From Acidimicrobiia bacterium (GTDB taxonomy: Bacteria > Actinomycetota > Acidimicrobiia > Acidimicrobiales > Poriferisodalaceae): DNA of 48,662 bases. Within the stretch, counting starts at the first letter, position 1; the number at the start of each line of letters is the position of its first letter. Below the pieces are notes generated by a model. It was given only the letters and a program-made list of their open reading frames with translations. It was not told where the DNA came from and made no database searches. The stretch is from assembly GCA_022826045.1 (NCBI GenBank), contig JAJDVQ010000027.1:1-48662 (forward strand), written 5' to 3'. The position numbers and the translations under genes are program-made. Of the stretch, positions 7,641-48,525 are shown piece by piece.

Positions 7641-7653
7641 CATGAACACGCAA

Positions 7654-7659: not shown

Positions 7660-7666
7660 CGGGTTC

Positions 7667-8256: not shown

Positions 8257-8432
8257 ATGATCGCTTCCAAGGGGGTGAGTGGTCGTAGGGGGTCAGCGAG
8301 CGCGCTGGCCGGGCCGGGAGGCACTTCCCCCCGCAGATCCGGCAACAGACCTGCAAGCCGCCGTCGGGGAGCGGCGCGCCGCTGGAGACTGACTGCCCGG
8401 CGTGATCTCCGCGCTGCCGCCTTGGTCCAACA

Positions 8433-9087: not shown

Positions 9088-9088
9088 G

Positions 9089-9645: not shown

Positions 9646-9663
9646 AATTGTGCCACGTTGTGG
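9643..9663 (-). promoter_or_regulatory. Palindromic operator of the Phd/RelE module
   Basis: A perfect 10-bp palindrome CACAATTGTG (9643-9652) is followed directly by a second inverted repeat, CCAC-GTT-GTGG (9653-9663). Both overlap or precede the antitoxin start. Paired palindromes of this kind are typical binding sites for Phd-type autorepressors. Confidence 0.5.
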
Positions 9664-9699
9664 TACCCGGCTCCAATCGGACTTGTGACAGCCCCTGCC

Positions 9700-9705
9700 T
9701 ACGTT
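9700..9705 (+). promoter_or_regulatory. -10 box TACGTT for leaderless gene at 9713
   Basis: The TANNNT box ends 7 nt before ATG 9713, so the transcript would start at or near the start codon. Confidence 0.5.
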
Positions 9706-9712
9706 GCGGGCC

Positions 9713-10723: not shown

Positions 10724-10822
10724 CGCCAGTCTGGCTCAGCAACACGCGCCGCGGGGTCGGGCGCTGCGGCACATCCTCAGCGAGCGCGTCGGCCTGACTG
10801 AGGCCGAGATACGAGACCTACT

Positions 10823-11050
10823 ATGGAAGCAAGCGCAGAGCCACTGGAGAGGCAGACGCACACCGTGCGCGTGTACCAGAACACCGAGGACGGCACCAAC
10901 TGGTGGGCGGAGGATGACCTCGGCTTCGCCGGCGGCGCTGACCAGCTGCCGGACCTCATGGATGCCATCCGTGAATGGGCCGAGGCCGAGGGCGTGCTCG
11001 ACGACCTGTCCGTCAACTTCGTTGAGTCAACGACGGGGGTGGCACCGTAG
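10823..11050 (+). CDS. HicB-like/DUF1902-like small protein
   Basis: This 75-residue protein has the pattern of the HicB N-terminal fold: a strand with 'THTVRVYQNTEDGTNWWAED', then 'LGFAGGADQLPDLMDAIREW' resembling the strand-helix segment of HicB antitoxins. It lacks a C-terminal DNA-binding domain and no HicA-type toxin is adjacent, so it would be an orphan. Upstream, at about 10730-10850, another frame reads a coding-like peptide (RALRHILSERVGLTEAEIRD) that ends by overlapping this start. The gene may therefore once have been longer, or a small upstream gene may have decayed. Confidence 0.45.
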   Translation: MEASAEPLERQTHTVRVYQNTEDGTNWWAEDDLGFAGGADQLPDLMDAIREWAEAEGVLDDLSVNFVESTTGVAP

Positions 11051-11089
11051 GTCTCTCCGATGCGGTCAGCGGCCCTGTGCTGAGCCGGA

Positions 11090-11815
11090 TCATCGGGTTG
11101 AGGACATGACGGCTGTCCAGAAGGTCAGCATGTCTTCTGTGAAGAGGGGGGCGAGTTCGGGGGTGCCGCCGATGTGGGCGCCGCGGACGCCGTAGCCGGC
11201 GTTGATGGCGTAGAGGAAGCCGTCGAGATCGACCATTGATGGGTCTGGCTCGTCGGAGGTCGGCGGGATGAAGGCGCCGTCGTCGGCCATGTACACGGTG
11301 GGTGCTCCCGGGGCGACAGCGGCATCCGGGATGTGCTCCAAAGGGGTCGAGCGGTCGAAGCTGTGGTGGGCGTCGGGCACGATCCGCACGGTGGCGTCGC
11401 CGCCTGCCAGCCGCATGGCGTGGGTGTGGGCTTGGACCTGCATCGGCGAGCACCAGTCGTCCTGATCGCCGATGATCGCCCGGACACGGGTGCTGCCGAC
11501 CGACGGGTCAACGAACTGGTGGCCCGACCAGGGGTAGGCGGCATACACGCCGGCGAGCTTGGGGGCGCCGGAGGCTGCCGCCAAGTGCACCGACGCTGCG
11601 CTCAGCACCGCCGAGCCGCCCCGGCTGTGGCCTTGTGCACCGACGCGCGCTGGGTCGATGTCGGGTCGGGCCGCAAGCGCCTCGGCGGCCGCAAGGACGT
11701 CCCACGCACTGGCGGCGAAGGAGTACTGGACCTGGTTGGCGACGGTCGAGGTGACGCTGCGGGGGCCGAACGGATCGAGGCCGCACGCGTCGAACCTGGC
11801 GCGCTGACAGACTCC
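11090..11815 (-). pseudogene. 5'-truncated dienelactone hydrolase-type alpha/beta hydrolase
   Basis: The C-terminal two thirds of a dienelactone hydrolase-family protein is clear: FGPRSVTSTVANQ, the nucleophile elbow GHSRGG, a catalytic Asp candidate in GDQDDWCSP and the catalytic His in DAHHSFDR. The N-terminal ~90-100 residues, carrying the first beta strands and the HG oxyanion motif, are missing. Homology stops at about 11790-11815, exactly where the divergent RDD gene starts at 11820. The frame stays open to 11932, but that part lies antisense inside the RDD gene and shows no conserved sequence. I therefore read it as a remnant cut by a deletion or insertion, probably inactive. Confidence 0.65.
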
Positions 11816-11819
11816 GCTC

Positions 11820-12230
11820 GTGTCTGAGGGTCTTGAGCCGCCGCCGCGTGAGCGGTACTTGGACGAGATGGCGGCGGGACCGATGCGACGTGCAGCCGCA
11901 CATCTCATCGAGATCGTGATCTGGGCGCTCATCCTGGCCTACTGGTACGTCGCGATTCCGTATGTCGCTTGGCTGGTGTTCGCCTTGATGCGCGGGCAGA
12001 CGCCCGGCAAGCAAGTGCTGGGGCTGGTGGCTGTGAAGTCAGACGGGACGCGGTTCAGTTTGCTGCGGATGTTGATCCGCGAGGTCTTCAAGGAGATCTA
12101 CTGGGTCTTCACGCTGGGTCTCGGTGTGGTCATCGACATCATGTTGCTGGTGCTCAGCGACGAACCCCGCACAGTCGCAGACCGCGTCATGGGCAGCACC
12201 ATCGTTCACGTATCGAATCTGCAGAGCTAG
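11820..12230 (+). CDS. RDD-family membrane protein
   Basis: RDD proteins are small integral membrane proteins of mostly unknown function, some implicated in ion exchange. The 136-residue product has two or three hydrophobic segments (LIEIVIWALILAYWYVAI, VAWLVFALM, then WVFTLGLGVVIDIMLLVL) and the family signature RGQTPGKQVLGL with downstream ADRVMGSTIV. The namesake Asp-Asp of the first helix is absent: the equivalent stretch reads RRAAAHLIEIV. The GTG at 11820 has no obvious ribosome site. It is followed by a second, better conserved RDD gene, so the two look like diverged tandem paralogues. Confidence 0.7.
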   Translation: MSEGLEPPPRERYLDEMAAGPMRRAAAHLIEIVIWALILAYWYVAIPYVAWLVFALMRGQTPGKQVLGLVAVKSDGTRFSLLRMLIREVFKEIYWVFTLGLGVVIDIMLLVLSDEPRTVADRVMGSTIVHVSNLQS

Positions 12231-12339
12231 CCGCCACCATCTCGTCAACCGGGGCAGGCCGCCAGCTCAGCAAACGCAAACCGCGGACTCCTGCTCGCGA
12301 CCGCCTCGTCGACTGTCTGCAACAATCTCGCCCGTGTCC

Positions 12340-12741
12340 ATGGAGCCCGAGCAGCCGCCTGAGCGCGATGGCTCCGTGAGCGACTTCGCAGCGGGTCCGT
12401 TTCGGCGCTTGATGGCTGCGCTGATCGACGATTTCTTCGTGCTGCTGATCCTCGTGTTCTGGCCGCTCATCTTTCTGCTCCTCGTGTGGTGGCTCTTCGT
12501 GCTGGGACGAGGACAGACACCTGGCAAGCAGCTCGCTGGGATCTTCGCTGTGCGGCGAGACGGCTCGCGATTCGGCTGGGGCCGGATGTTCATCCGCGAG
12601 AACTTCAGGTTGCTCTTCTGGATCGTGACCTTCGGATTCGCCCTGATCGTCGACGGCGCCCTCATCTTGCTGCGCAAGGACCGCCGCTCCGTAACCGACC
12701 TCGTCGCGGGCAGTGTCATCGTCTACGTCCCCAGCGGGTGA
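12340..12741 (+). CDS. RDD-family membrane protein, second copy
   Basis: This 133-residue paralogue of the gene at 11820 has the full RDD signature in its first helix (RRLMAALIDDFFVLLIL), the RGQTPGKQLAGI motif and a final hydrophobic helix (FWIVTFGFALIVDGALILL). The product should be a three-helix inner-membrane protein. The start could be ATG 12340 or GTG 12334. Neither has a strong ribosome site. The 100 nt between the two RDD genes hold nothing recognisable. Confidence 0.75.
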   Translation: MEPEQPPERDGSVSDFAAGPFRRLMAALIDDFFVLLILVFWPLIFLLLVWWLFVLGRGQTPGKQLAGIFAVRRDGSRFGWGRMFIRENFRLLFWIVTFGFALIVDGALILLRKDRRSVTDLVAGSVIVYVPSG

Positions 12742-12779
12742 CATTCGCCACAGACGAGATAGCGGGTGTCGGGAGCATC

Positions 12780-12785
12780 TAGCTT
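12780..12785 (+). promoter_or_regulatory. -10 box TAGCTT for leaderless gene at 12792
   Basis: The TANNNT box ends 6 nt before GTG 12792. There is no ribosome site, consistent with a leaderless transcript. Confidence 0.5.
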
Positions 12786-12791
12786 GCGGGC

Positions 12792-13955
12792 GTGTCGAGC
12801 TTTGAGGTAGCGGTTGTCGGGCGAGGGCTGATCGGCAGTGCTGCCGCGAGGCATCTCGCAGAGGCCGGGCATTCGGTCGCGTTGATCGGGCCGGGTGAGC
12901 CGGAGGACTACGCCTCGTCAAACGGTCCGTTCGCGAGCCATTACGACGAAGGCCGCATCACTCGGATGATCGATCCGGATCCTGCCTGGTCGCACTTGGC
13001 GATCCGCTCGATCGGCAGATACGCCGACATCGAGGAGCGCTCGGGCATCGGGTTTCATGCCGGCACCGGGCTGGTCTATTCGGGGGCTGATCCGCATGCG
13101 GATCTCGCCCATGCGGTCGAACTCGATGTCGATGCGCGCGAGGTCACTGCTGACGAGGTTGCGGAGCGCTTCGGCATCGACATGTCGAGCGCGGACGCGA
13201 TCATCTTCGAAGCTGCACCGGCGGGGCATATCAACCCGCGGCGGATGGTCGCGGCACAGAGCAAGCTGACGGCCGCGGCGGGCGGGACGGTGGTGGACGC
13301 GCCGGTCTCAGCGGCCACGCCGACCGTCGACGGCGTGCAGCTGACAGTCGGCAACGACACGGTGCTCGCCGGGGGCGTGCTGTTGTGCACCGGCGCGTGG
13401 GCGGCGGAGTTGGTCGGGGCCGACTTGCCGCTCGAGCGCAGCCTTCGGACGATCCTGATGGCCGAGCTCGACGACGGCCCGGTGCTGCCAAGCCTCATCT
13501 CCCGGACCGACCCAGCCACCTGCGAGGAAGATCCTCGCCACGACGTCTACTGGGTACCGCCCGTCCGGTTCCCCGACGGTCGGGTCATGCTGAAGATCGG
13601 CGGCTACGACCCTGCCGCCACCATGGCCGACGATGTGCCCACGGTGGTCGATTGGTTCCGCAGCGGCGGAAGCGTGACCGAAGCGGACGACCTCGAGGCC
13701 CGGCTGCGCGAGTTCCTCCCCGACCGCACGATCCGGTCGCGCGACTTCAAGCCCTGCGTGGTCACGAACACGCCGCACGACCTGCCGTGGATCGACTGGG
13801 TGGAGGATCGAGTCGCCGTCGCGGTGGGCGGCTGCGGTTCCGCCGCCAAGTCGGCCGATGAGATCGGTCGGCTCGCAGGGACGCTGTTCACCGATGAGGG
13901 CTGGACCGACCCGGTGCTCAAGCTCGAGTCGTTCCGGCCGTCAAACGGCGCGTGA
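12792..13955 (+). CDS. FAD-dependent oxidoreductase, DAO/sarcosine oxidase-like
   Basis: This 387-residue flavoenzyme probably oxidises a secondary or primary amine, or an amino-acid-like substrate, with O2 as acceptor. It has the N-terminal dinucleotide-binding motif GRGLIGSAAARHLAEAG and a conserved acidic/GPG segment after the second strand. The middle (HAGTGLVYSG, INPRRMVAAQ) and C-terminal FAD-contacting region (GGCGSAAKSADEIGRLAG) are as in MSOX/DAO enzymes. The covalent-flavin cysteine of monomeric sarcosine oxidase lies in a comparable C-terminal region. The Cys in AVGGCGSAAK is a candidate but unproven. It opens the 12.8-19.8 kb catabolic cluster, so its substrate may be an amino or betaine intermediate of that pathway. 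Confidence 0.8.
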   Translation: MSSFEVAVVGRGLIGSAAARHLAEAGHSVALIGPGEPEDYASSNGPFASHYDEGRITRMIDPDPAWSHLAIRSIGRYADIEERSGIGFHAGTGLVYSGADPHADLAHAVELDVDAREVTADEVAERFGIDMSSADAIIFEAAPAGHINPRRMVAAQSKLTAAAGGTVVDAPVSAATPTVDGVQLTVGNDTVLAGGVLLCTGAWAAELVGADLPLERSLRTILMAELDDGPVLPSLISRTDPATCEEDPRHDVYWVPPVRFPDGRVMLKIGGYDPAATMADDVPTVVDWFRSGGSVTEADDLEARLREFLPDRTIRSRDFKPCVVTNTPHDLPWIDWVEDRVAVAVGGCGSAAKSADEIGRLAGTLFTDEGWTDPVLKLESFRPSNGA

Positions 13956-14031
13956 ACCGGACATCGCGAAGCGACTGCCGCAATCAGGACGCTGCGAACC
14001 GGATGTCCTGGCCCGAGCGTGACCTTGCGGC

Positions 14032-14409
14032 TCAAGCGTGCGGTTCCAACAGCTCCAACCGGTTGCCGAAGGGATCATCTACATAGACGCGGTCGTAGCC
14101 CTCAAGCGGTTCATCGTCCCGAACGGCGACACCAGCGGCTCGCAGCCTCTCGACTAACGCTGCGAGTCCTTCGACCCGCAGCGCTGGGTGGGCCTTGCGA
14201 GCGGGATGAAACGGATCCTCGACGCCCAGGTGGACTTTGACTGCGCCTTCGCCGCGATCACTCTCAAACCAACAGCCGCCGTGTCGTTCAAGGTGCGGTG
14301 GCTTGGGCACCCGCGGCAGGCCGAGCAATCCCTCGTAGAACGCCTGCGCGTCGGCCTCGCCACCGAGCGGCATGGCCAGCTGCACGTGATCGATACCGGC
14401 AATCCTCAT
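14032..14409 (-). CDS. VOC/glyoxalase-fold protein
   Basis: The 125-residue protein is a single VOC module pair: MRIAGIDHVQLAMP with an early metal-ligand-type His, AQAFYEGLLGLPRV, GCWFESDRG, and the closing DPFGNRLELLEP with the usual C-terminal Glu. Such proteins act as dioxygenases, isomerases or resistance proteins. The substrate cannot be read from sequence. I chose ATG 14409 because conservation begins there, although the frame is open to 14448. It lies antisense between the flavoenzyme and the first SDR of the cluster, so it may or may not share the pathway. Confidence 0.75.
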   Translation of the reverse strand: MRIAGIDHVQLAMPLGGEADAQAFYEGLLGLPRVPKPPHLERHGGCWFESDRGEGAVKVHLGVEDPFHPARKAHPALRVEGLAALVERLRAAGVAVRDDEPLEGYDRVYVDDPFGNRLELLEPHA

Positions 14410-14629
14410 GACACTGGTCCGGCACAGACTCTGACTCCGCTTGCCCAACCGTCACGAACGCAGGGCGACGCCGGGGATGTGCCAGCAGCGGCGCGCCGAT
14501 GAGCCATGCTGCAAGCCTGCCAACTGCGGCGACGATTCGGCACAGTACCGACAGCGGCCGAACCAGCGGCCATGGGTGCGGGGAAACGGCAATGTACAGA
14601 GCGGCAGGGACGTCGAGGGAGAGGTGGTT

Positions 14630-15436
14630 GTGAGCAGTGTGGTGGTGACAGGGGCGAGCTCGGGGATCGGCGAGGCGATCGCTCGGCGGTTCGTGGCTGA
14701 CGGCTGGGACGTGCTGACCGGCAGCCGGCGGCAGCCCGGGCTCGCAGGCGCCGAGTGGCTGCAGACCGATGTGGCCGATCCGGCGCAGGCCGATGCGCTG
14801 GTGGCTGCTGCTGTGGAGCTGTTCGGGCGGCTGGATGTGGTGGTGAACAACGCCGGCGTGCAGGTGGAGAAGACCGTGGCCGACACCACTGATGAGGATT
14901 TCGACCGGGTCATGGACGTCAACGTGCGGGGCGTGTTCAACATGTGTCGTGCGGCCGTACGGCAGATGTCGAGCCAACACGACAGCCATCGATCCGAGCA
15001 GCACGGAGGCCGGCGAGCCGAACAGCCCGACGGCCTGCGAACTGGCCGGCACGACGGCGGCGTCATCATCAACATCGCCTCGATCGCCGCGACCCACGCC
15101 GACGCCGGCATGGCCGTCTACAACGCGTCAAAGGGCGCCGTCGAGGCGCTTACCCGGGCCATCGCCATCGATCACGGCCACCAGGGCATCCGCTGCGTGG
15201 CGGTCAGTCCTGGCTGGATCGCCACTGCGCTCGCCGATGCCGTGTTCGACCTCGAAGCAGACCCGGCCGCGGCCCGGCTGGCAGCCGTCGAGCGCCATCC
15301 CGTCGGCAGGCTCGGCACCCCTGATGACGTCGCCGAAGTAGTCGCCTGGCTGGCGGGCCCGGCGGCCAGTTTCGTCTCGGGCAGCGTGTTTACTGTGGAC
15401 GGTGGCCTCACAGCACAGAGCCCCATCGGCGGCTGA
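14630..15436 (+). CDS. Short-chain dehydrogenase/reductase with an inserted hydrophilic loop
   Basis: This NAD(P)-dependent SDR of 268 residues has the cofactor motif TGASSGIG, NNAG, the catalytic Ser region (NIASIAA), Y-x-x-x-K (YNASKGA) and a normal C-terminus ending in TVDGGL. Between the helix ending AAVRQM and the strand IINIAS it carries about 30 extra residues rich in Gln, His, Arg and Gly (SSQHDSHRSEQHGG). Classical SDRs do not have this, and their usual length is about 250. The frame is intact. GTG 14630 was chosen for the GGGAGAGG ribosome site just upstream and because the first strand follows at once. It probably oxidises a hydroxy acid or alcohol intermediate of the cluster. Confidence 0.8.
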   Translation: MSSVVVTGASSGIGEAIARRFVADGWDVLTGSRRQPGLAGAEWLQTDVADPAQADALVAAAVELFGRLDVVVNNAGVQVEKTVADTTDEDFDRVMDVNVRGVFNMCRAAVRQMSSQHDSHRSEQHGGRRAEQPDGLRTGRHDGGVIINIASIAATHADAGMAVYNASKGAVEALTRAIAIDHGHQGIRCVAVSPGWIATALADAVFDLEADPAAARLAAVERHPVGRLGTPDDVAEVVAWLAGPAASFVSGSVFTVDGGLTAQSPIGG

Positions 15437-15507
15437 AGTGACGGCGAATGCCACGCGGAGCGAGGCAGCCAGCAGGCGCGTCCGGCTGGTCCGGGGTTAG
15501 TGCGGAC

Positions 15508-16713
15508 ATGACAGCGACCGCCCGCCAGCCGTGCCCGGTTGCTGCGGTCGAAGCGCTCATCGTGTCGGTGCCCGCTGTCGGGAACGCCTTCGCCGAAGGC
15601 TCGGAGGAAACGCTGCTCGTCAAGGCGACCGACGAGGACGGGCGGGTCGGCATCGGCGAGTCGGTGTGCACACCCGCGGTCGTCAAGGCGATGATCGACC
15701 AGCGCACCATTCACTTCTGGAGCCAGGGCATCACCGACATCGTGGTGGGCGCCGACCCGATCGAAGCCGCGGCGCTGTACGACCGGGCGTACCACGGCAG
15801 CTTCTACCACGGCCGCCGCGGCACCTACATCCAGGCGTACTCGGCCGTGGACATCGCGCTGTATGACCTCGCTGGGCATCAGCTCGGCCTGCCGGTGTAC
15901 AAGCTGCTCGGCGGCGCCCGCAGCGAGCGCATCCGGCCGTATGCCACCTGCTACCCCGGCGACATCTACAACGGCCCGATGTCGGCGGTGCTCGACGAGG
16001 TCACCCGCCAGGCCGCCATCGCCGCCGACCAAGGCCTCACTGCGGTCAAGGTGCCGGTGCTGTTCGGCGCTGAGGTGTCCGACCGAGCCGTTGTGGAGTT
16101 CGTCGGCAGCTGCCGGGAAGCGCTCGGCGACGAGCTCACCATGGCGCTCGACTTCGGCTACCGCTGGTGGGACTGGCACGACGCCGCCTGGACGCTGCGA
16201 CGCATCGAGGACTTCGACGTGGCCTTCGCCGAAGCACCGCTGCGCCACGACGACCTCGCCGGCCATGCCCGCCTGGCCGCCGTTTCGCCCATCCGGGTGG
16301 GCGGTGCCGAGTTCGCCGCGGGGCGCTGGGAAGTGCGCGAATGGCTGACCACCGGCGGGGTGTCGCTGGTGCAGCCCGGCGTCAGCCGCGCCGGTGGCTT
16401 CACCGAGCTGATGCGCATCGCCGAGCTGTGCGAGATGCACGGCGCGCAGCTCATCCCCCACAGCTTCGCCACAGGCATCACCGACGTCGCCAACTTCCAC
16501 CTGCAGGCAGCAGCGCTGACCATCCCGATGGTGGAGTTCCGCTCGTCGCGGCTCGGCCCGTCCCGCCTGCGTACCGAGCTGGTGCACCCGCCCGAGCCCG
16601 AGATCGTCGACGGCTACGCAGCGCTGCCGACCGGTGCCGGCCTCGGCGTGGAGCTGAACGAAGAACTCGTGGCTGCCCACACACTCGATGCAGCCGACGA
16701 CGCGAGCGATTGA
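15508..16713 (+). CDS. Mandelate racemase/muconate lactonizing enzyme (enolase superfamily)
   Basis: Enolase-superfamily enzymes abstract a proton alpha to a carboxylate to racemise or dehydrate acids. The 401-residue protein has the capping N-domain and a barrel with metal ligands D215 (LDFGYRW), E242 (FAEAPL) and E268 (GGAEF). The Lys of the second strand is present (K181 in TAVKVPV), but its partner position is Pro rather than the Lys/Arg/Asn of named groups. The His base is H318 (IPHSF). The Asp that normally pairs with it ('QPD') is Gly here (VQPGVSRAGG, G291). Chemistry may therefore differ from the classical dyad. It likely acts as an acid-sugar or hydroxy-acid dehydratase within the cluster. 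Start ATG 15508 precedes the conserved region. GTG 15496 is an alternative. Confidence 0.82.
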   Translation: MTATARQPCPVAAVEALIVSVPAVGNAFAEGSEETLLVKATDEDGRVGIGESVCTPAVVKAMIDQRTIHFWSQGITDIVVGADPIEAAALYDRAYHGSFYHGRRGTYIQAYSAVDIALYDLAGHQLGLPVYKLLGGARSERIRPYATCYPGDIYNGPMSAVLDEVTRQAAIAADQGLTAVKVPVLFGAEVSDRAVVEFVGSCREALGDELTMALDFGYRWWDWHDAAWTLRRIEDFDVAFAEAPLRHDDLAGHARLAAVSPIRVGGAEFAAGRWEVREWLTTGGVSLVQPGVSRAGGFTELMRIAELCEMHGAQLIPHSFATGITDVANFHLQAAALTIPMVEFRSSRLGPSRLRTELVHPPEPEIVDGYAALPTGAGLGVELNEELVAAHTLDAADDASD

Positions 16714-16716
16714 CCA

Positions 16717-18081
16717 GTGAGCGAGCCGTCGGCTGGGTTGTCGGCGTCACCGTCGGACCGGTCATCCCAGGCCTCAGCCATGCCCCGATCTGTGCCAGCA
16801 GCGCACGATGCACACGGGACGGCGCCGAACCCGCAGGCTGATGCCGCAGTGCACGGGGCCGTGGGAGGCATCACCACCTGCAACCCGCATCTCGGCAACC
16901 GGCTCGGCATCGCCGACGCACCCGCCGTGACCGGCGCGACGATCGACGGGCGCCAGGTGCGTGTCACCTTCGCCGACGGCCGCCAGCGCACCTACTCGGC
17001 GCAGTGGCTGCGGCATTGCTGCTGGTGCGCCGAGTGCGGCAATCCCGCCGACGGCATCCGCTTCACGACCGTGGCGAGCATCCCGCCCGACATCGCGCCG
17101 GCGACCGCCGGGGCCTGCAACGGCGACTTGGCGCTGACGTGGCCCGACGGCCACCGTTCCGCCTACGGCGGCGACTGGCTCGCAGCGAATGCCTACGACG
17201 ACGAGGCTCGCCGGCGCAGGGCCGAGCGGCGGCCCACCACCTGGCGGGCCGAACTGGCCGGCGACTTCCCGACCGTCGACTGGGCCGACGCCAGTGACGG
17301 CGGCGCCGGCCAACAGCACACCTACCGGCTCTTGGCCGGCTACGGCATCGTGTGCATCGACAACCTCGGCAGCGACCCCGCCTGCACCGAGCAGCTCGCC
17401 AACCTCGTCGGCCCCATCCACGAGACGACCGTTTATGGCCGCATCTACGACGTGCGGGCCGAGCCGGTGGCCAAGCTCGGCGCCAAGACCGGCATGGCCC
17501 AGGCGCCCCACATCGACGATGCCTTCTATTACTCGCCGCCCGGCATCGACATCTTCCACTGCCTGGTCAACACCGATGTCGGCGGCATGAGCACCTACGT
17601 GGACGGCTTCGCCATCGCCGAGTCGCTGCGCGCCGACGAGCCCGACGCATTCGAGGCCCTCACCACGCTGCCCGTCACCCATGTGCGGCGCCACCCCGGC
17701 GAGATCAACCTGCGCAGCCGCAGCCCGGTCATCCGGCTCGACGAGTTCGGACGCCTCAGCGGCATCCGCTACTTCGACCGGGCGCTCGGGCCGCTCGACG
17801 TGCCGCCAAGCGACGTCGACCGGCTCTACGACGCCATCCGGGCCTTCAGCGACCGCATGCTGAGCCCCGCATTCACAGCAGCCATCCGGGTCGAGCCCGG
17901 CCAAGGCGTGCTCATCGACAACCACCGGGTCATGCACGGCCGCACGGAGTTCGACCCCGCATCGGGCCGCCACATCCGCCTGTGCCACGTGCCCCGCGAC
18001 GAGTTCCACGGCCGCCTGCGCGAGCTCAGCCTGCGGCTCGACCCATGGCGGCACGACCAGTACTTGCCGCAGGGCTCATGA
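16717..18081 (+). CDS. Gamma-butyrobetaine dioxygenase-like 2-oxoglutarate oxygenase
   Basis: This Fe(II)/2-oxoglutarate dioxygenase resembles gamma-butyrobetaine and trimethyllysine hydroxylases. The 454-residue protein has an N-terminal DUF971-like zinc domain (WLRHCCWCAECGNP, cysteines around 101-107), then a TauD-type jelly roll with the iron motif H265-x-D267 (APHIDDAF), distal His H407 (NHRVMHGRTEF) and a 2-oxoglutarate-binding Arg candidate in GRHIRLCHV. The first ~45 residues are low-complexity, so the true start could be internal. GTG 16717 follows the enolase gene stop by 3 nt, implying one operon. Hydroxylation of a betaine or amino acid side chain is the likely reaction. The actual substrate is inferred only from family. 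Confidence 0.85.
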   Translation: MSEPSAGLSASPSDRSSQASAMPRSVPAAHDAHGTAPNPQADAAVHGAVGGITTCNPHLGNRLGIADAPAVTGATIDGRQVRVTFADGRQRTYSAQWLRHCCWCAECGNPADGIRFTTVASIPPDIAPATAGACNGDLALTWPDGHRSAYGGDWLAANAYDDEARRRRAERRPTTWRAELAGDFPTVDWADASDGGAGQQHTYRLLAGYGIVCIDNLGSDPACTEQLANLVGPIHETTVYGRIYDVRAEPVAKLGAKTGMAQAPHIDDAFYYSPPGIDIFHCLVNTDVGGMSTYVDGFAIAESLRADEPDAFEALTTLPVTHVRRHPGEINLRSRSPVIRLDEFGRLSGIRYFDRALGPLDVPPSDVDRLYDAIRAFSDRMLSPAFTAAIRVEPGQGVLIDNHRVMHGRTEFDPASGRHIRLCHVPRDEFHGRLRELSLRLDPWRHDQYLPQGS

Positions 18082-40305: not shown

Positions 40306-40665
40306 TCAGCGGCGCAGTGAGCTGGACAGGCCGAGCGCCAGTCGGAGACCGTCGTCGATGCGCTCCATGGTGGCCGGGCCCACGGCGCCGACCGCTTCGG
40401 ACAGTTCTGCCTTGTCGATGGTGACCCCTTGGGACACGTTGGCCACCGAGTCGTGGGGCAGACCCGCTTCGGCGGCGGGCAGGCTGACGTTGCCGGGCGC
40501 CTCGAGCAGCTGCAGATTGCTTGTCACCACCACCCCGACAACCGTCGCTATGCGGCTGCGGTTGAAGCTGTCATCGGAGACCACCACCAGCGGGTGCCGA
40601 TAGCCCGGTTCCGAACCGGCCGGCTCGCCGAAGTCGACCCAGCAGACATCGCCCCGCTGGATCAC
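40306..40665 (-). CDS. MazF/PemK-family mRNA interferase toxin
   Basis: The 119-residue toxin begins with MIQRGDVCWVDFGEPAGSEP and has the conserved RHPLVVVSDDSFNRSRIATV and VVVTSNLQLLEAPGNVSLP strands, then DSVANVSQGVTIDKAEL. MazF cuts single-stranded RNA at short motifs. The key Arg and the Thr/Ser of the active site have plausible counterparts (R in GYRHPL, T in VVTSN). The start overlaps the antitoxin stop as ATGA (40662-40665). Confidence 0.87.
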   Translation of the reverse strand: MIQRGDVCWVDFGEPAGSEPGYRHPLVVVSDDSFNRSRIATVVGVVVTSNLQLLEAPGNVSLPAAEAGLPHDSVANVSQGVTIDKAELSEAVGAVGPATMERIDDGLRLALGLSSSLRR

Positions 40666-40895
40666 CGGCGGCCTGACAGCGCCCGAGCCTGCGCCTCACG
40701 AAGGCCGGCCCCGAGATCGGAGCGCTCGGCCTCGTACACGGCATTGAGCTTGGCCGTGACCTCCTGCCGCCCAGCCTCGGCCAGCAGACGCCGCAGCGCC
40801 TCCGCATACAGGCTCGAGCGCGAGCAGCGCTCACGCGCCGCCAATTCCTCCCCTGCCCGAAACACATCGTCCGGAATCGAAACGGCGATCTTCAT
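40662..40895 (-). CDS. MazE-type ribbon-helix-helix antitoxin
   Basis: The 77-residue protein is a ribbon-helix-helix repressor (MKIAVSIPDDVFRAGEELAA, then RSSLYAEALRRLL) with a C-terminal helix for toxin binding (EVTAKLNAVYEAERSDLGAG). It should neutralise the MazF toxin just downstream. Transcription probably starts at the ATG itself: TATACT lies 6 nt upstream, and an inverted repeat overlaps the box, giving a simple autoregulation switch. Confidence 0.83.
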   Translation of the reverse strand: MKIAVSIPDDVFRAGEELAARERCSRSSLYAEALRRLLAEAGRQEVTAKLNAVYEAERSDLGAGLREAQARALSGRR

Positions 40896-42391: not shown

Positions 42392-42476
42392 CGTCGGACC
42401 GGGGTAACGAGCCCCGGTGGGGTGCGCTCATCGTACCGGAGGCATCGGTGGCTGAAGCCATGGGGAGCCGGCCGAC

Positions 42477-42797
42477 TCAGGCGACCTGGACCGCGTTGTG
42501 GAGTCGGCTCGGTGGTTCTGCCGGGAACGACAGCACCAGGTGCCGATTGAGTCCGGACGCAACGCGCGCAAGGGTGTCGATCCGGTTGCGTGCTCCCCCG
42601 CCTTCCTCGAGGCGCGAGATCACCGACTGCGTCGTGCCCATGCGCTCTGCCAGCTCGCGCTGGCTCAGTCCCGCCTGAACGCGCAGATCATGGATGAGCT
42701 GACCCAACGCAAGATCCTGCTCGACGACAGCGCGCGTCGACGGGGAAGGCCCGCCGCGGCCAGCCTTGACATCCTCCCAGCGGGATCGATTAGCCAC
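42477..42797 (-). CDS. HigA-like XRE-family antitoxin
   Basis: The 106-residue protein has an XRE helix-turn-helix at about 35-90 (IHDLRVQAGLSQRELAERMG, TTQSVISRLEEGG), preceded by a linker (DVKAGRGGPSPSTRAVVEQD) typical of HigA antitoxins. It should bind the toxin encoded 12 nt upstream and repress the pair. The toxin-first order is the higBA arrangement. Confidence 0.85.
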   Translation of the reverse strand: MANRSRWEDVKAGRGGPSPSTRAVVEQDLALGQLIHDLRVQAGLSQRELAERMGTTQSVISRLEEGGGARNRIDTLARVASGLNRHLVLSFPAEPPSRLHNAVQVA

Positions 42798-42809
42798 AGC
42801 TCGACTCCA

Positions 42810-43133
42810 TCACGGATCGCTGCGTGCGCAGTCCGCCGCAGCACGACGCGCTCGAGCGATCTCGATGCGCTCGTTGCCCCGCTGCTTGCGAAACGTCGTC
42901 AGGAGTACCACGCGACCGTCGGTTGTGAATCGATACGTGATACGTCGGGATGTCGGACCGAGTGTGAAGCGAAGCTCGAACAGGCCGCCGCCGAGACTTC
43001 GCGACAGCGGCATCCGGGCCATGGCGCCCAAGTCGGCCAGCCGGTCGATGATCACGACGACGCGGTGCCAGTCGGATTCGCTGAGCTGATTGAGCCACCC
43101 CACTACCTCGTCGTGGATCTCGACATCTGCCAC
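42810..43133 (-). CDS. HigB/RelE-like toxin
   Basis: The 107-residue toxin has the phage-derived Gp49/HigB form of the RelE fold: EVVGWLNQLSESDWHRVVVI, then SRSLGGGLFELRFTLGPTSR, RITYRFTTDGRVVLLTTFRK and a closing helix with ERIEIARARR. It is a probable ribosome-dependent mRNA interferase. Its promoter region contains a strong inverted repeat just upstream. Confidence 0.85.
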   Translation of the reverse strand: MADVEIHDEVVGWLNQLSESDWHRVVVIIDRLADLGAMARMPLSRSLGGGLFELRFTLGPTSRRITYRFTTDGRVVLLTTFRKQRGNERIEIARARRAAADCARSDP

Positions 43134-43140
43134 GCACAGG

Positions 43141-43162
43141 ATAATCGCACTATTGCGATAAT
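43141..43162 (-). promoter_or_regulatory. Operator upstream of HigBA
   Basis: ATAATCGCA-CTAT-TGCGATAAT is an inverted repeat (6 perfect central pairs, one mismatch, two outer pairs) ending 8 nt before the toxin start. The AT-rich arms supply -10-like sequences (GATTAT). It is a likely HigA binding site. Confidence 0.55.
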
Positions 43163-43376
43163 GCCACCAAAGCAGTTTTGGCGATGCGCGAACTCAAATC
43201 GTCGCGTCGAAGCAGCTGCCGCATGTCGCCTGGTACGCAACTACGGCCGCCCGAAGGCGACCGTAGGACGTGGCGTTCGGCCGGGGGCCTAAGCGCCGTT
43301 GAAGAAGTACACGGGCACTTTACGGCCCGATCCGAGCCCCAGCCAAATCGGTTCGAGTCTCTGCCTGAGCAGGCCC

Positions 43377-43973
43377 TCACAAGCCGAGCCGACGTTCGAT
43401 GGCCTGCCAGCGTGTGCGGGCTGCCACGTGATGCTCGTCGTCGATCTGCTCGCAGACCGCACGCGGCCGGACGGCTTCGGACTCAACCAGGCCTACGACA
43501 GCAGCCTCGACATCGTCCCAGCTGACCTCGACGTATCGAGTGCCGTCGCGCATCAGCTCGATCACGGCGACTTCAAGCGGCTCCAGCTCCCGGAACCGAC
43601 GCTCGACAGACCTCGCCGCAAACACCACTCCTCGGGGAGGCCGATGAGCACGGCCGGCGACCGCCACCGCCTCCACAGAGGGAACCTGCGTCGTCAAGCC
43701 CAGTGCTGTTGCAGCCGAGAAGCCAGCTGGGCCGGCCCCGGCGCCCGCTGCTGCCATCCCGACCGCGAGTGGCGCCGGAGGCACCATCCCAGCCCGTGTC
43801 TGGGGCCCCTTCCAGTACAGGCCCTTGTGGGCGCGCATCAGCTCATTCCGGCCTGCCAGCCGCGCCAGCTCGCAATCGACTGCGTGACCTGGTGTCGGCA
43901 GGTCGCTTCGCGATAGAAACGACCGCACCGGCAGGCGCTCGACATGCTCACGGACCGTCTTAGCAACGCTCAT
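43377..43973 (-). CDS. AbiEi/DUF6088-like antitoxin
   Basis: The 198-residue protein begins with a winged-helix segment (KTVREHVERLPVRSFLSRSD, LARLAGRNELMRAHKGLYW) characteristic of AbiEi and DUF6088 proteins, the transcriptional antitoxins of type IV AbiE systems. The C-terminal part (RRFRELEPLEVAVIELMRDG, YVEVSWDDVEAAVVGLV) matches their second domain. The usual AbiEii nucleotidyltransferase toxin would lie directly downstream, but 43163-43376 holds no such gene, so the antitoxin is alone. The start region is AT-rich with TACGAT 8 nt before the ATG. Confidence 0.65.
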   Translation of the reverse strand: MSVAKTVREHVERLPVRSFLSRSDLPTPGHAVDCELARLAGRNELMRAHKGLYWKGPQTRAGMVPPAPLAVGMAAAGAGAGPAGFSAATALGLTTQVPSVEAVAVAGRAHRPPRGVVFAARSVERRFRELEPLEVAVIELMRDGTRYVEVSWDDVEAAVVGLVESEAVRPRAVCEQIDDEHHVAARTRWQAIERRLGL

Positions 43974-43981
43974 GAGAAGAA

Positions 43982-43987
43982 ATCGTA
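43982..43987 (-). promoter_or_regulatory. -10 box TACGAT upstream of the AbiEi-like gene
   Basis: TANNNT ends 8 nt before ATG 43973 in an AT-rich stretch without a ribosome site. The spacing is one base longer than in the other cases here. Confidence 0.4.
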
Positions 43988-44068
43988 TCGATAAATTCTC
44001 AAACTTGCGAAGCGAATCAATTGGCGCCGAATCGGATCTTCGTTCCGCCCTGAAGCATCGCCGTCGCC

Positions 44069-44626
44069 CTAGCTCGCCGCGCTCAGCGGCAGCTCGTCCC
44101 ACAGCTTGCCCTCGAGTTCGCGGCCGCCGGCCTTGGGCGTGCGGCCTCCCCACTGCTTGAAGAAGAACGCCACGCCGGCCGAGACGCAGGCGTCGCGCAG
44201 CTCGGTGACCCAGTCCAGCTCCATGGGCCGGGCGCCGGCACCGGACTCGCCGCCGGCGATCACCCAATCGATGCCCGCAAGATCGAGCTCGCCGAGCGGG
44301 CCGAGCAGCGGCTCGGCGCTGACGAAGCTCACCGCTGCGGGAAGCTGGCGCAGGTGGTCGATGCGGAACCCGTACCGGCGAGTCTCGACGCTCACGCCCA
44401 TCGGTAGGTTCGGCGGCCAGTCGAGCTCAGGTGCGATCCGGCTCAGCCGCTGCGCTCGCTTGGTGAGCACCTGGTAGGTGTGCTGGGGCGTCTCGCGGAT
44501 CACCTCGAAGACCTGCGCGATGAACCCCGGCGGCACATCGTCGTGAAAGAGATCGCTCATCGAGTCCACGAACACGAGGCGGGGTGCGCTCCAGCGTCGA
44601 GGCACATCGAGCGACGACCGATGCAA
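44069..44626 (-). pseudogene. DUF5131 (Gp37/Gp68-like) protein, truncated second copy without the three-Cys motif
   Basis: The 185-residue frame is a close paralogue of the C-terminal three quarters of the DUF5131 protein at 45723-46469 (shared VSVETRRY, PAAVxFVSAEPLLGPLGELD, AGGESGAxARPMELDWVTEL and GVAFFFKQWGGRTPKAGG). Similarity begins at LTLHRSSLDVP, within a few bases of the tcmP stop at 44639. The first ~62 residues, including the GC...GC..CYA cysteine motif, are absent. The only start is a TTG at 44626. It is therefore either a remnant of a duplication that flanks tcmP or a deliberately short partner. Its frame is intact over 185 codons, so recent loss or retained function are both possible. 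Confidence 0.65.
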
Positions 44627-44638
44627 GGTGAGCCTGTC

Positions 44639-45718
44639 TCAGAACAACGACTCCGGAGCGAGGTGAAGCATCCGGACCGCATTGGCGCCCGCAGGTGTCC
44701 TCCACTCAACCCTGCGTTCTTCGCGGAGCGAGTTCACGGCATCCGCGACTTGCGGTTCTCTGAAGATTGTCTCAAGGAGGGCATGACTACGGAGCTCGGC
44801 CATGCTGTGCCCCCGCTCCTTCAGCAGACGCAGGATGCTCTCCTTCAGCGGCGTCAGGTCCGGCTCGAGAATGTCAAGCGACAGTTGATTGGGGTCACGG
44901 GGATCTCGGAATCGCTGGCCGGCGATGTAGTCGACTTCCCACATTGCGTCCTTGAACTTTCCCACTGCGACGTGATGGGTAGTGCCGAAGAAGAGCCGCA
45001 AGGAATGTCCGCCTTCGTCCACGAGATCGAATGTGAGCACGTAGGCGAATCCGGCCTCGCGCAGCCCCTGCCTGTACAGATCGAGAATGTGCGGCGATTT
45101 GTTCGCAGTCAGCTGCTGACCAACGCCGCGCCAGTCGCTGTGTCCGAACACCCGCTCGCCAGCTCTCTGTGGACCGTCTGGGAATCGAATGAAGAACTGG
45201 TCCTCAAACGTAACGAGCACCTCGGACGACGAATGCTGGGCGATGCGCTGAACGATCTCATAGTCAGCATCGACTCCCCAACCGTCGAGATTTGCGAAGA
45301 CCGGACCTGTCCATCCGCCGACCTCGTCGATTGCTCGTTCGTAGAGGTCGGTGCAAGCGCCGTGGTGGACACGAGTCACCACATTGCGTGGCCTGATTGA
45401 TTGCGGGAATCGAGCCTCCAAGAGGTTCTCAAGGTGCTGAGCGCGACGGCGGTCCTGCTCGATGAACACGAGACGAATTGGCGTTCCTCCGCCGGCCACA
45501 TCACTTCGCAGCGACTGCGCCATGGCAATCGCCGGCGAGCTGACCTGAGAATTCGTGTACTCCCCTGGTCCCGCAAAGCCGTCGAAGAAGGTGATCCCTA
45601 CATCCCGGAACTGCTTGGCCATGATCGGGAACCACGCATCTAGGTAGCGGCGCAGCAGCTTGTGTTTCGCATCCGTGTGGGGGTCGCGCTCCCAGAGAAC
45701 CTCGGTTGGAACCGCCAC
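44639..45718 (-). CDS. tcmP: Three-Cys-motif partner protein TcmP
   Basis: TcmP proteins are encoded next to DUF5131/Gp37-Gp68 proteins bearing a three-cysteine motif. Their biochemical role is unknown. The 359-residue protein has a TcmP start (VLWERDPHTDAKHKLLRRYL), a methyltransferase-like first motif (GITFFDGFAGPGEY), PIRLVFIEQDRRRAQHLENL resembling the acidic end of strand 2, ANLDGWGVDADYEIV, and a winged-helix-like C-terminus (LKESILRLLKERGHSMAEL). The 'FAGPGxY...FIExD' pattern suggests a Rossmann nucleotide- or SAM-binding core. GTG 45718 lies 4 nt after the stop of the DUF5131 gene, so the two are coupled. Confidence 0.83.
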   Translation of the reverse strand: MAVPTEVLWERDPHTDAKHKLLRRYLDAWFPIMAKQFRDVGITFFDGFAGPGEYTNSQVSSPAIAMAQSLRSDVAGGGTPIRLVFIEQDRRRAQHLENLLEARFPQSIRPRNVVTRVHHGACTDLYERAIDEVGGWTGPVFANLDGWGVDADYEIVQRIAQHSSSEVLVTFEDQFFIRFPDGPQRAGERVFGHSDWRGVGQQLTANKSPHILDLYRQGLREAGFAYVLTFDLVDEGGHSLRLFFGTTHHVAVGKFKDAMWEVDYIAGQRFRDPRDPNQLSLDILEPDLTPLKESILRLLKERGHSMAELRSHALLETIFREPQVADAVNSLREERRVEWRTPAGANAVRMLHLAPESLF

Positions 45719-45722
45719 TGAG

Positions 45723-46469
45723 CTAGCTCGCCGCTTTCAGCGGCAGCTCGTCCCACAGCTCACCCTCGAGTTCCCGACCGCCGGCCTTGGGCGTTCTGCC
45801 TCCCCATTGCTTGAAGAAGAACGCCACGCCTGCCGAAGTGCAGGTGTCGCGCAGCTCGGTCACCCAGTCCAACTCCATCGGCCGAGCGTTGGCACCGGAC
45901 TCGCCGCCTGCGATCAGCCAGTGGATGCCTTCAAGATCGAGCTCGCCCAGCGGCCCGAGCAACGGCTCGGCGCTTACAAACCGCACCGCTGCAGGGACCT
46001 CGCGAAGATGGTTGATACGGAAGGCGTAGCGGCGCGTTTCCACGCTCACGCCCATCCAGAGGTTTGACGGCCAATCGAATTCACCTGCCACTCGGCTCAG
46101 CCGCCGCGACCGCTTGGTGAGCAACTGGTACGTGTGCTGGGGCGTTTCCCGGATCACCTCGAAGACCTGCCCGACGAACTCCAAGGGAACGTCGTCGTGG
46201 AAGAGGTCGCTCATCGAATTCACGAACACGAGCCGGGGCGCGCCCCAGCGCTTTGGCACGTCGAGCGACGAAGGATGAATGGTGAGCTTGAAGCCTGGCC
46301 CGCTTGTTCGCGGGTCGCCGTCGTTCTGGTACTTCGGCGAGCCCATCGCCTTGAGCCGCTTCGACAACGTGAGGGCGTAGCAGTTGTCGCAACCCGGAGA
46401 CGTGCGGTCGCAACCCGTGGTCGGATTCCACGTCGCTTCGGTCCACTCGATTGCTGACTTATCGGCCAC
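45723..46469 (-). CDS. DUF5131 family protein (phage Gp37/Gp68-like) with three-Cys motif
   Basis: The 248-residue protein opens with SAIEWTEATWNPTTGCDRTS and PGCDNCYA, the Cys-x6-Cys-x2-Cys pattern that names the TcmP partnership and recalls an iron-sulfur or radical-SAM-like site. The core is a barrel-like series: RLVFVNSMSDLFHDDVP, VIRETPQHTYQLLTKRSRRL, NLWMGVSVETRR, RFVSAEPLLGPL, IAGGESGANARPM and FFFKQWGGRTPKAGG. Phage and bacterial members are known, with no assigned function. GTG 46469 is supported by a TANNNT box 6 nt upstream. It is the first gene of the DUF5131-tcmP pair. Confidence 0.85.
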   Translation of the reverse strand: MADKSAIEWTEATWNPTTGCDRTSPGCDNCYALTLSKRLKAMGSPKYQNDGDPRTSGPGFKLTIHPSSLDVPKRWGAPRLVFVNSMSDLFHDDVPLEFVGQVFEVIRETPQHTYQLLTKRSRRLSRVAGEFDWPSNLWMGVSVETRRYAFRINHLREVPAAVRFVSAEPLLGPLGELDLEGIHWLIAGGESGANARPMELDWVTELRDTCTSAGVAFFFKQWGGRTPKAGGRELEGELWDELPLKAAS

Positions 46470-46475
46470 GCCTCA

Positions 46476-46481
46476 ACCGTA
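46476..46481 (-). promoter_or_regulatory. -10 box TACGGT for the leaderless DUF5131-tcmP transcript
   Basis: The TANNNT box on the minus strand ends 6 nt before GTG 46469. No ribosome site is present. Confidence 0.5.
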
Positions 46482-46567
46482 GGGGCAAGGTGTGACAGCC
46501 GCGAAGTCGAATTCGCGTGTCAACGAGATCGACGTGGCACGAAGTCGGCTAGCTGCCATGGGCCGAC

Positions 46568-48370
46568 TCAGCCGTCTCGCTTCCAGATTGCGCAGATGTG
46601 CTCGGCCAGCCAGTCGCTTCGTTCAACGATCGTGTCGTCGTTCCACGTATCGAACCACCGGTAGCCGTCCGGAACGGCACCCTCGATGGAGAGCGTCTTG
46701 TTGAGGTGGAGCTTGGAGTGCTTCGCGAGTTCGTCCCGCTTCGTGGTCCACGCCGAGTTGGACATGGCGGGGTTGAGCTTGTCGTTGGCCAACGTCAGAT
46801 TCCCCAGCGTGTGCAGGCGAGTCCATCGTTCATCGCGAGTCAGCTCGGAACCCTGAAGCGGCCAGTCTTCTTCGGTCCAGCCAACTGGCAACAAGTGCTC
46901 GATCGTCAGATTCTTCGGGCACAGCGATTCGGACTTGTCATCTGACAAGCTCAGGCGGTCTTCGATCGCCTCCAAGACCATCCTGAGCCGGGCGCGGCTC
47001 AGTTGCAGGTACAGCGGCCGGCTGCGGACCGACTCACGGACATCTCCATCCGTTGGCCACGCTGTGTTCTGCGCCTCGGCCTGGCTGAGCACCGCGCTGA
47101 TCGTCGCCGGCACACCGTCGCCGGACTGCTCCTTGACGTTGCGCAGCAACGGGTGCAGGAAGTTCTGGTAGCCGCGCGTCGTGCGACCGCAGATCATCCG
47201 CCGCATGAACCAGCTCTCCAGCAACTCCAACGAATGCACCCGGTCGTGGTCACTGATCTGGGCATCGTCGCTGAACAGCCAGAGAAGCAACGGTGTCATC
47301 ACCCGCAGCTGCGACACGTCCCACCGGTAGAAGAAATCCGCCAGCCGCGGGCCCTCGAACGAGCCGTCCTCCAAGCTCTCAAAAACGCCCGAGAACCTGG
47401 ACAGGTTGTCGGCGACGTCTTGTACCGAGAGCTGCTCGTCAGACACGAACTTCCGGTACTCGTCGAACAACCGCTGGGTGCTGACTTCCTTCGCAAGGTT
47501 CATGGAAAGCCAGTAGAAGAGGAAGGCGTCGAGCCGCGGCCAGCGGACACGACCCAAGATCATCTCTTCGCGCCACCAGTCAGCTTCCAAGTGCTGCCAG
47601 TGGTCCCGATGGATCCGTTCGACATCGAGTTGTTGCACCTGCGCCTCGAGGAGCATGTGGTTCTTGACCAGGTCAGAGGCGAGGAGCGGGGTGCCCCGAG
47701 CGTTCAGGGTCTCGAAGATTGCTTGCGCGTTGTCGTCGTCCTCGAGGTCGATGACGACGAGATGGACACCGAGACTGATGGCTGCCACGAGCGCCGCAAA
47801 TCGTTCGTCGACGGTGTGATCCGGGTCGGGTTCCAGGGCCCAGTACCGGGCCTGTGACTTGAAGAACGCGTGCGCCTTCGCAATCGCCTTCTCGACGAGA
47901 TCCTCGGGCACCGTCGTCTCGTCAGTCATCGCGTGGCGGAAGACCGGTTGATCGGCGTTGGTAGGCCAGATCTTGAACCGGTCATCATCCGTGAAGAGTT
48001 CGGTGTCATTGAGTACCAGCTTTTGAAGTTTCCGGCTCTCGAGCGCGGGCCCTCCTTGTTCCCGGATTACCTCCTCGACAGCATCCGCTAGCAGCTGCAG
48101 CGTTGTGAGTCGCTGCTGCCCGTCGATCACGTCGCGCGTCTCAAGCGTGCCAACGGGGCTGTGCTGCTGGCGCACTACCACTGCCCCTAGGAAATGGTGG
48201 GAGATGTGCGTACTGTCATCGAGATAGTGCTCCGCGAGTGATATCACGTCCTCCCACAACGGCACCCACTGGCGGTCGCGATCCCAGACGTAGGGCCGTT
48301 GGTACAGCGGCACTCGAAACTGCACATCAAGCGCAAAGATCTTCTGTAGTGGAAGGATGCTCACATCCAT
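46568..48370 (-). CDS. GmrSD-type DUF262/DUF1524 restriction nuclease
   Basis: This 600-residue protein combines the two halves of GmrS-GmrD type IV restriction enzymes in one chain. The N-terminal DUF262 domain has VPLYQRPYVWDRD and the ParB-like nucleotide motif RDVIDGQQRLTTLQLL (DGQQR at about 83-87). The helical middle includes ISLGVHLVVIDLEDDDNAQA and IFETLNARGTPL. The C-terminal DUF1524 HNH domain has the LTIEHLLPVGW His motif, LHTLGNLTL and MSNSAW. Such enzymes cut DNA with modified bases (for example glucosylated phage DNA), so it is a likely phage defence gene. I prefer ATG 48370 (GAGGTG 5 nt upstream) over GTG 48376. It precedes the DUF5131-tcmP genes by about 100 nt in the same direction. 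Confidence 0.88.
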   Translation of the reverse strand: MDVSILPLQKIFALDVQFRVPLYQRPYVWDRDRQWVPLWEDVISLAEHYLDDSTHISHHFLGAVVVRQQHSPVGTLETRDVIDGQQRLTTLQLLADAVEEVIREQGGPALESRKLQKLVLNDTELFTDDDRFKIWPTNADQPVFRHAMTDETTVPEDLVEKAIAKAHAFFKSQARYWALEPDPDHTVDERFAALVAAISLGVHLVVIDLEDDDNAQAIFETLNARGTPLLASDLVKNHMLLEAQVQQLDVERIHRDHWQHLEADWWREEMILGRVRWPRLDAFLFYWLSMNLAKEVSTQRLFDEYRKFVSDEQLSVQDVADNLSRFSGVFESLEDGSFEGPRLADFFYRWDVSQLRVMTPLLLWLFSDDAQISDHDRVHSLELLESWFMRRMICGRTTRGYQNFLHPLLRNVKEQSGDGVPATISAVLSQAEAQNTAWPTDGDVRESVRSRPLYLQLSRARLRMVLEAIEDRLSLSDDKSESLCPKNLTIEHLLPVGWTEEDWPLQGSELTRDERWTRLHTLGNLTLANDKLNPAMSNSAWTTKRDELAKHSKLHLNKTLSIEGAVPDGYRWFDTWNDDTIVERSDWLAEHICAIWKRDG

Positions 48371-48525
48371 TCGCACACCTCATCAATTGGTGACCGATGC
48401 TGCACCTATAGGCGCGGCGAGATGCTAGTTCTTGAGACGCGTGCCCTTGCCTGCCAAGGTCGAAGGCCCGGTTCTCGAACTCGGCCGAACGCTCGCCGCC
48501 GCGAGCAAATTTCATTATTGTGGCT

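Follow-up and report, generated by a model that had tools for sequence, protein, structure and literature searches.

The locus described here raises the question of what a DUF5131 protein and its neighbor TcmP do together, and which of the genes around them belong to the same system. It lies at the end of a 48,662-nucleotide stretch of DNA from an Acidimicrobiia bacterium (contig JAJDVQ010000027.1 of assembly GCA_022826045.1), here called the window, which is one entire contig (C21) of an incomplete assembly. The final 4.6 kb of the window holds four consecutive genes on the minus strand, namely a DUF262/GmrSD gene, a DUF5131 gene, tcmP and a truncated DUF5131 gene, as the frames and the family matches (PF03235, PF07510, PF07505 and TIGR04474) confirmed. 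A preliminary description had read these genes as one block with a possible role in defense or nucleic acid modification. That interpretation of the block as a whole was partly supported: the block itself stands, the four-gene reading does not, and the constant part is the DUF5131/tcmP pair. We propose that the pair is a two-gene module in which DUF5131, a predicted radical S-adenosylmethionine (SAM) enzyme, and an RlmJ-like TcmP would protect the host or prophage by modifying invading nucleic acid, and we give this proposal an even chance of being right. The features of the pair are:

45723..46469, minus strand: DUF5131, predicted radical-SAM-like enzyme, core gene (248 amino acids; PF07505, 2.3e-98)
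46380..46412, minus strand: three-Cys motif C20-x6-C27-x2-C30 of DUF5131, predicted iron-sulfur cluster site from its conservation in relatives
44639..45718, minus strand: tcmP, core gene with a predicted class I methyltransferase fold that is closest to RlmJ (359 amino acids; TIGR04474, 1.4e-46)
45563..45589, minus strand: TcmP motif I, FFDGFAGPG (D46 and G50 conserved in at least 90% of 34 sequences)
45275..45292, minus strand: TcmP motif IV, NLDGWG, in most relatives D-P-x-G (D145 invariant in 34 sequences)
44687..44899, minus strand: possible C-terminal GMT-like winged-helix domain of TcmP (PF22560)

The two frames (46469..45723 and 45718..44639) are separated by 4 nucleotides, as had been described. 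Across genomes tcmP is patchy, being found in 9 of 61 genomes in a search of relatives (the window's own genome counted) and in 43 of 396 in the phylum. With a narrow profile, DUF5131 was found within 500 nucleotides of 32 of 42 tcmP frames, in three arrangements. With broader profiles, a partner was present at all 48 tcmP loci counted (37 with DUF5131 and 11 with another protein), and 47 of these partners lay within 500 nucleotides, the last being split off by an insert with an HTH_38 and a sub-threshold rve match. The 48 loci exclude the window pair, two weak cases (G172 and, at L107, G174), three fragments (G241, G255 and G325:C25) and a second place in G228. A tcmP partner gene, whether DUF5131 or an alternative, was absent from all 39 control stretches drawn from the same genomes. 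Genes in the fetched loci were called as greedy longest frames, and the 65 fetched tcmP loci include some genome regions more than once. At one locus (L088, 8402-10981, genome G228), a frame that matches HTH_38 and, below threshold, rve interrupts tcmP and is probably a transposase.

The alternative partners show that DUF5131 is replaced beside tcmP by Radical_SAM-type genes. Pfam scans covered eight of the 11, from which a profile was built that found the remaining three. Seven of the eight scored above the PF04055 Radical_SAM cut-off and one just below; spore photoproduct lyase (SPL) was matched below threshold in three, and DUF5131 was matched weakly, below threshold, in all eight, starting at the Cys region. 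These proteins thus bridge PF04055 and DUF5131, and in the alignment their Cys motifs are in register with those of DUF5131.

The pair also matched PADLOC models of adjacent A (TcmP) and B (DUF5131) proteins: PDC-M30A (1.3e-37) for TcmP, and PDC-M41B (5e-107) and PDC-M30B (2.7e-102) for DUF5131, PDC being presumably "phage defence candidate". The pair is therefore a known candidate, for which the library gives no mechanism. What is added here is the replacement of the partner, the exchange of tcmP described below and a newly proposed nature of the pair, likely a radical-SAM enzyme with an exchangeable RlmJ-like partner, as judged from profiles and predicted models. In the available part of the PADLOC web-server paper (PMC9252829), neither "PDC" nor "three-Cys" was found, and among the open papers listed we found no functional test of a TcmP/DUF5131 pair.

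DUF5131, also named "phage Gp37/Gp68", is listed by Pfam as of unknown function and has at least 7,999 homologs, with 161 phage records and 403 plasmid records; some phage annotations label the frame RNA methyltransferase. Its cysteines are highly conserved. C20, C27 and C30 were all present in 42 of 42 close sequences, and among 33 diverse sequences C27 and C30 occurred in 33 and C20 in 32, all three together in 32. A pattern search recovered the motif in 30 of 32 DUF5131 proteins; it scanned only the first 90 residues, and in the two misses (L062 and L073) the called frame begins well before the DUF5131 match. In genome G268 (L070, 1483-3441), an intein-like insert with a LAGLIDADG domain splits DUF5131 exactly before the third cysteine. 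The cysteines had been described as a metal-binding cluster, and their invariance agrees with this; they are better read, however, as a radical-SAM iron-sulfur site, three conserved cysteines being what a [4Fe-4S] cluster of that kind would use. In a fold comparison the DUF5131 model came closest to SPL, and it appears to have the partial TIM-barrel fold of radical-SAM enzymes. In addition, all 33 diverse sequences matched the NCBIfam family TIGR04471, "radical SAM mobile pair protein A", so the radical-SAM reading was partly anticipated by that name. Taken together, these findings make it very probable that DUF5131 belongs to the radical-SAM enzymes and is of the SPL type.

Several results weigh against this assignment. 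The window's DUF5131 has no direct PF04055 match, and its match to TIGR04471 is far under the cut-off (72.8 bits against 355) and covers residues 78-221, which excludes the Cys motif. The spacing is CX6CX2C and not the canonical CX3CX2C, and for this reason we filed the protein as radical-SAM-like; radical-SAM families with other spacings exist. Alignment of the DUF5131 and SPL profiles with hhalign covered only 14 columns at a probability of 5%, the Cys motif alone being aligned, and we rejected it as a likeness. Foldseek returned nothing below an E value of 0.001 for the DUF5131 model, the top rank being a designed TIM barrel. The model is of moderate quality, with a predicted local distance difference test score (pLDDT) of 75; the Cys region is weak (56-58 in the blocks covering residues 21-50), and residues 1-8, 51-59 and 224-248 fall below 50. 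The DUF5131 scans gave no match to the SPL families PF20903/TIGR03886, and a sequence search found no solved structure for DUF5131. DUF5131 thus differs from SPL, a radical-SAM DNA repair enzyme, in its Cys spacing, in lacking PF20903 and PF04055 matches and in being paired with TcmP.

TcmP is predicted to be the RlmJ-like, methyltransferase-fold partner. Its fold is Rossmann-like, as the preliminary description had it, and has the class I methyltransferase form with RlmJ-like motifs I and IV; RlmJ scored 14.0 in the fold search, and hhalign also aligned TcmP to RlmJ. Less favorable to a specific kinship are the near tie with CmoA (13.5, within 1 of RlmJ) and the 955 of 1000 chains that scored at least 8 in the same search. 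DPPY is the catalytic motif of RlmJ. In TcmP, motif IV has D-P in 27 of 34 sequences and never D-P-P, the window reading NLDGWG; no sequence has (N/D/S)PP(Y/F/W) at that motif, and 5 of 34 carry the pattern elsewhere. Methylation by TcmP is uncertain because of this absence. TcmP differs from RlmJ, the 23S rRNA m6A2030 methyltransferase, in having DPxG or DGWG at motif IV, in its pairing with a radical-SAM-type gene and in a possible C-terminal winged-helix domain in part of the family (PF22560 at E 0.0026 in the window, which is under the cut-off, and at E 0.01 in 10 of 34 relatives). Two matches to solved structures found for TcmP by sequence were at chance level and were discarded.

TcmP varies far more than its partner. 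Over 496 locus pairs the median identity was 55% for DUF5131 and 23% for TcmP. In eight Gordonia phages, DUF5131 is 92-100% identical and the metalloprotease flank 90-99% identical in all, while TcmP falls into four groups with 19-25% identity between groups and 51-100% within them. Variation on the repressor side does not follow that of TcmP: Easley and Bosnia have a common repressor and different TcmPs, and Easley and ThankyouJordi a common TcmP and different repressors. In seven of the eight phages, the gene immediately upstream of tcmP is the annotated repressor, encoded on the same strand; Jablanski has two other genes there. In BaxterFox DUF5131 is unannotated on that strand, yet the frame is present. 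That tcmP is exchanged while its neighbor DUF5131 stays constant would be expected if tcmP determined the target, like the specificity genes of type I systems, and by this analogy TcmP may set the target of the pair. The available part of a study of Gordonia and Mycobacterium prophage defense (PMC6426606) describes a similar placement, two genes that adjoin the immunity repressor and are coexpressed with it (CarolAnn 43/44 and Sbash 30/31). Those genes are of other types (gp43 a predicted membrane protein, gp44 with a weak DUF4747 match common with RexA), DUF5131 and TcmP are unmentioned in that part, and we ruled this defense out as the same system.

The setting of the pair in bacterial genomes is rich in restriction genes. 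Among the matches listed, 12 of 89 HsdM-like genes lay within 10 kb of tcmP against 0.64 expected. With the window's genus left out, several of whose loci represent one inherited arrangement, the count was 6 of 49 against 0.37. These counts use the 89 matches with E values of 2.9e-20 or less; weaker ones, some also near tcmP, were dropped. For the control family AA_kinase, one of the first 100 matches listed was near tcmP. Relatives of the window's HsdM, HsdS and HsdR were found at 11, 5 and 5 of the 65 tcmP loci and at none of the 39 controls. At an E value of 1e-10, PADLOC tallies gave 324 families near tcmP and 59 in controls; they rest on 133 of 392 neighbor genes within 6 kb (the nearest three per locus, up to 1,500 amino acids) and 133 of 434 control genes, and they count families and not proteins, one protein matching many models, with no per-locus result. 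A second tcmP/DUF5131 pair of the same genome, on contig C29, has an Mrr-like gene on its downstream side (Pfam Mrr_cat was found on its counterpart in L101), and there, as in four genus relatives, DUF5131 is immediately preceded by hsdM. The suggested link of the pair to defense or nucleic acid modification thus gained from the PDC-M30/M41 matches and from the enrichment of type I methylases, though not in its inclusion of DUF262. The type I restriction-modification genes reported at the opposite end of the window are indeed present (positions 163-7084). In Sinorhizobium meliloti, tcmP (SMa2243) is listed directly after hna, a phage defense gene (available part of PMC12445080), and TcmP is among the prophage genes (available part of PMC12429752).

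Two candidates for earlier reports of radical-SAM defense were set aside: in the accessible text, "radical SAM" concerns DndC in a phosphorothioate (Dnd) paper and a core gene flanking the hotspot in a Pseudomonas hotspot paper.

We then consider the outer genes of the block, with the junction and the flank:

46568..48376, minus strand: DUF262/GmrSD-type restriction endonuclease (602 amino acids; GmrSD_N and GmrSD_C in one chain), an occasional neighbor and not core
44069..44638, minus strand: what remains of the 3' part of a resident DUF5131 allele, from residue ~61 onward and lacking the Cys motif (assigned from identity to the L109 allele)
44634..44641, no strand: junction of the incoming tcmP end and resident DUF5131; the L109 homology ends beside the tcmP stop codon (44641-44639)
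43377..43979, minus strand: AbiEi-like antitoxin of the resident flank (PADLOC AbiEi 5.7e-39, no Pfam match; 98% nucleotide identity to L109)

The GmrSD-type nuclease lies upstream of DUF5131, as described, with a gap of 98 nucleotides. Both domains scored above the Pfam cut-off (PF03235, 2.5e-36; PF07510, 2.1e-21), as in GmrSD type IV enzymes, and the protein matched the PADLOC models Orf5, mREase_IV and HEC-06. The gene starts with GTG at 48376; an in-frame ATG at 48370 fits the end given previously. Conservation beside the pair, which the four-gene reading implied, was not observed: 3 of 50 GmrSD matches (51 genomes), among them the window's own, lay within 10 kb of tcmP, where 0.35 would be expected, and tblastn found no relatives of the window's DUF262 at the 65 tcmP loci. 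DUF262 was thus ruled out as a fixed member and differs from the pair in being a neighbor only.

The short DUF5131 is the leftover of another allele and not a working fourth gene, as its sequence relationships indicate. Its frame (44626..44069; PF07505, 1.3e-71) matches from model position 57 on and lacks the first ~60 codons. It had been called a duplicate of the full copy, but this was ruled out, since the two share only 84% nucleotide (and 84% amino acid) identity while the remnant is 97% identical in amino acids to DUF5131 on contig C66 of a same-genus genome (G007:C66, L109). Window positions 43218-44634 match L109 at 96% nucleotide identity, and further collinear blocks of 75-94% identity extend back to 36001. 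The match stops at 44634, which is four bases beyond the stop codon of tcmP, where L109 continues into the Cys motif of its DUF5131. The resident DUF5131 was therefore cut, a block ending in tcmP occupying the place of its 5' part, and its first ~60 codons were likely lost when that block arrived. Of 133 sequences compared, 9 were closer to the remnant and 123 to the full copy, which had served to collect most of them. The dN/dS values (nonsynonymous/synonymous) of the remnant were 0.020/0.028 with 12 differences, a sample too small to prove decay. A search at E 0.001 found no DUF5131 in this genome besides the window's two and that on C29. In another family of the phylum (G428, L066), a full DUF5131, AbiEi and AbiEii are followed by a DUF5131 3' piece that is 95% identical to the full copy over 478 bases; from this second cut gene we infer that defense cassettes can use DUF5131 as a site of recombination. 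The full order there (4004-16776) is hsdM, hsdS, a DUF3644 gene, the tcmP-DUF5131 pair, AbiEi/AbiEii, the DUF5131 piece and, further on, hsdR, so that the pair lies within a type I restriction-modification cluster. A stretch of ~760 bases in the window (42459-43217) is missing from L109 at the same place, as if cleanly inserted, and carries a RelE/HigB-like gene (42810-43133, Gp49) and a helix-turn-helix antitoxin-like gene (42477-42797).

In the mechanism that we propose, target choice would fall to TcmP, which would recognize a sequence or structure in the RNA or DNA of the phage and may also methylate it. The radical chemistry would come from DUF5131, whose C20, C27 and C30 would carry a [4Fe-4S] cluster; this enzyme would cleave SAM and attack the base or sugar that TcmP had selected. 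The modified nucleic acid would then stop working or become a target of neighboring restriction enzymes. On a broader view, which we rate somewhat short of even, this would be a widespread radical-chemistry immune module in which an exchangeable TcmP, of methyltransferase fold, aims a radical-SAM enzyme that stays constant (DUF5131 or a substitute of the Radical_SAM type); bacteria and temperate phages would retarget it by swapping tcmP cassettes, leaving DUF5131 stubs as scars.

Other explanations account for part of these observations. The pair could mark DNA or RNA of the host or prophage itself, with type I or GmrSD neighbors cutting what lacks or bears the mark, and so be the modification half of various restriction partners. 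The G428 pair inside a cluster with hsdM, hsdS and hsdR and the repeated position of HsdM next to DUF5131 speak for this, and GmrSD enzymes cleave modified DNA (available part of PMC4619093). So do lone phage copies of DUF5131 near replication genes, which fit work on the phage's own DNA and count against our proposal. Such copies, in Mycobacterium and Gordonia phages (L161, L162 and L166), are 42-47% identical to the window's DUF5131, have no annotated TcmP adjoining and suggest that DUF5131 may act alone. Our proposal is also weakened by the counts in phages, where there are 161 DUF5131 records while the window TcmP finds 10 and the Fairfaxidum TcmP 4, and by a strong HsdM match within 10 kb at only 11 of 53 tcmP places, although many contigs end nearby. 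Nevertheless, none of the nucleases accompanies the pair constantly, and the temperate phages have no annotated restriction enzyme in the 3-6 kb on either side of it, so we consider self-marking unlikely, if worth keeping in view.

Repair, with DUF5131 as an SPL-like enzyme for DNA lesions on mobile elements and TcmP as the lesion finder, would agree with the closest predicted fold and with the copies by phage replication genes. Wholesale exchange of the partner between close phages is unexpected for repair, however, as is the enrichment near restriction genes, and we regard this as improbable. A shade less probable still is a toxin-antitoxin pair, one gene acting as a growth toxin on host tRNA or rRNA and the other as its antidote to give abortive infection: the genes are tightly paired, with overlaps, TcmP resembles an rRNA methylase and toxin-antitoxin genes occur elsewhere in the window, but the usual small-antitoxin layout is absent and phage DUF5131 also occurs without a recognized TcmP. 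The single four-gene system of the preliminary description retains its common strand and close spacing; it is contradicted by the survey of DUF262 and by the origin of the short DUF5131 from another allele without the Cys motif, and is very improbable.

The reading of the pair as a radical-SAM enzyme with an exchangeable RlmJ-like partner would turn a common, unexplained pair into a testable chemistry. Viperin is a known case of radical-SAM defense, and protection from phage by this pair, if true, would be radical-SAM defense of another kind. The Gordonia phages, with one DUF5131 and several TcmPs, offer a natural experiment on what sets the target.

Two further features of the window were noted. 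A 44-codon stub at the contig end (48526-48660) resembles a transposase tail by eye but has no Pfam match, and the transposase previously placed beside the block is unconfirmed, no others having been looked for. At 40306-40895, a PemK/MazF-type toxin gene is preceded by a small gene (40662-40895) that has no Pfam match and is possibly its antitoxin.

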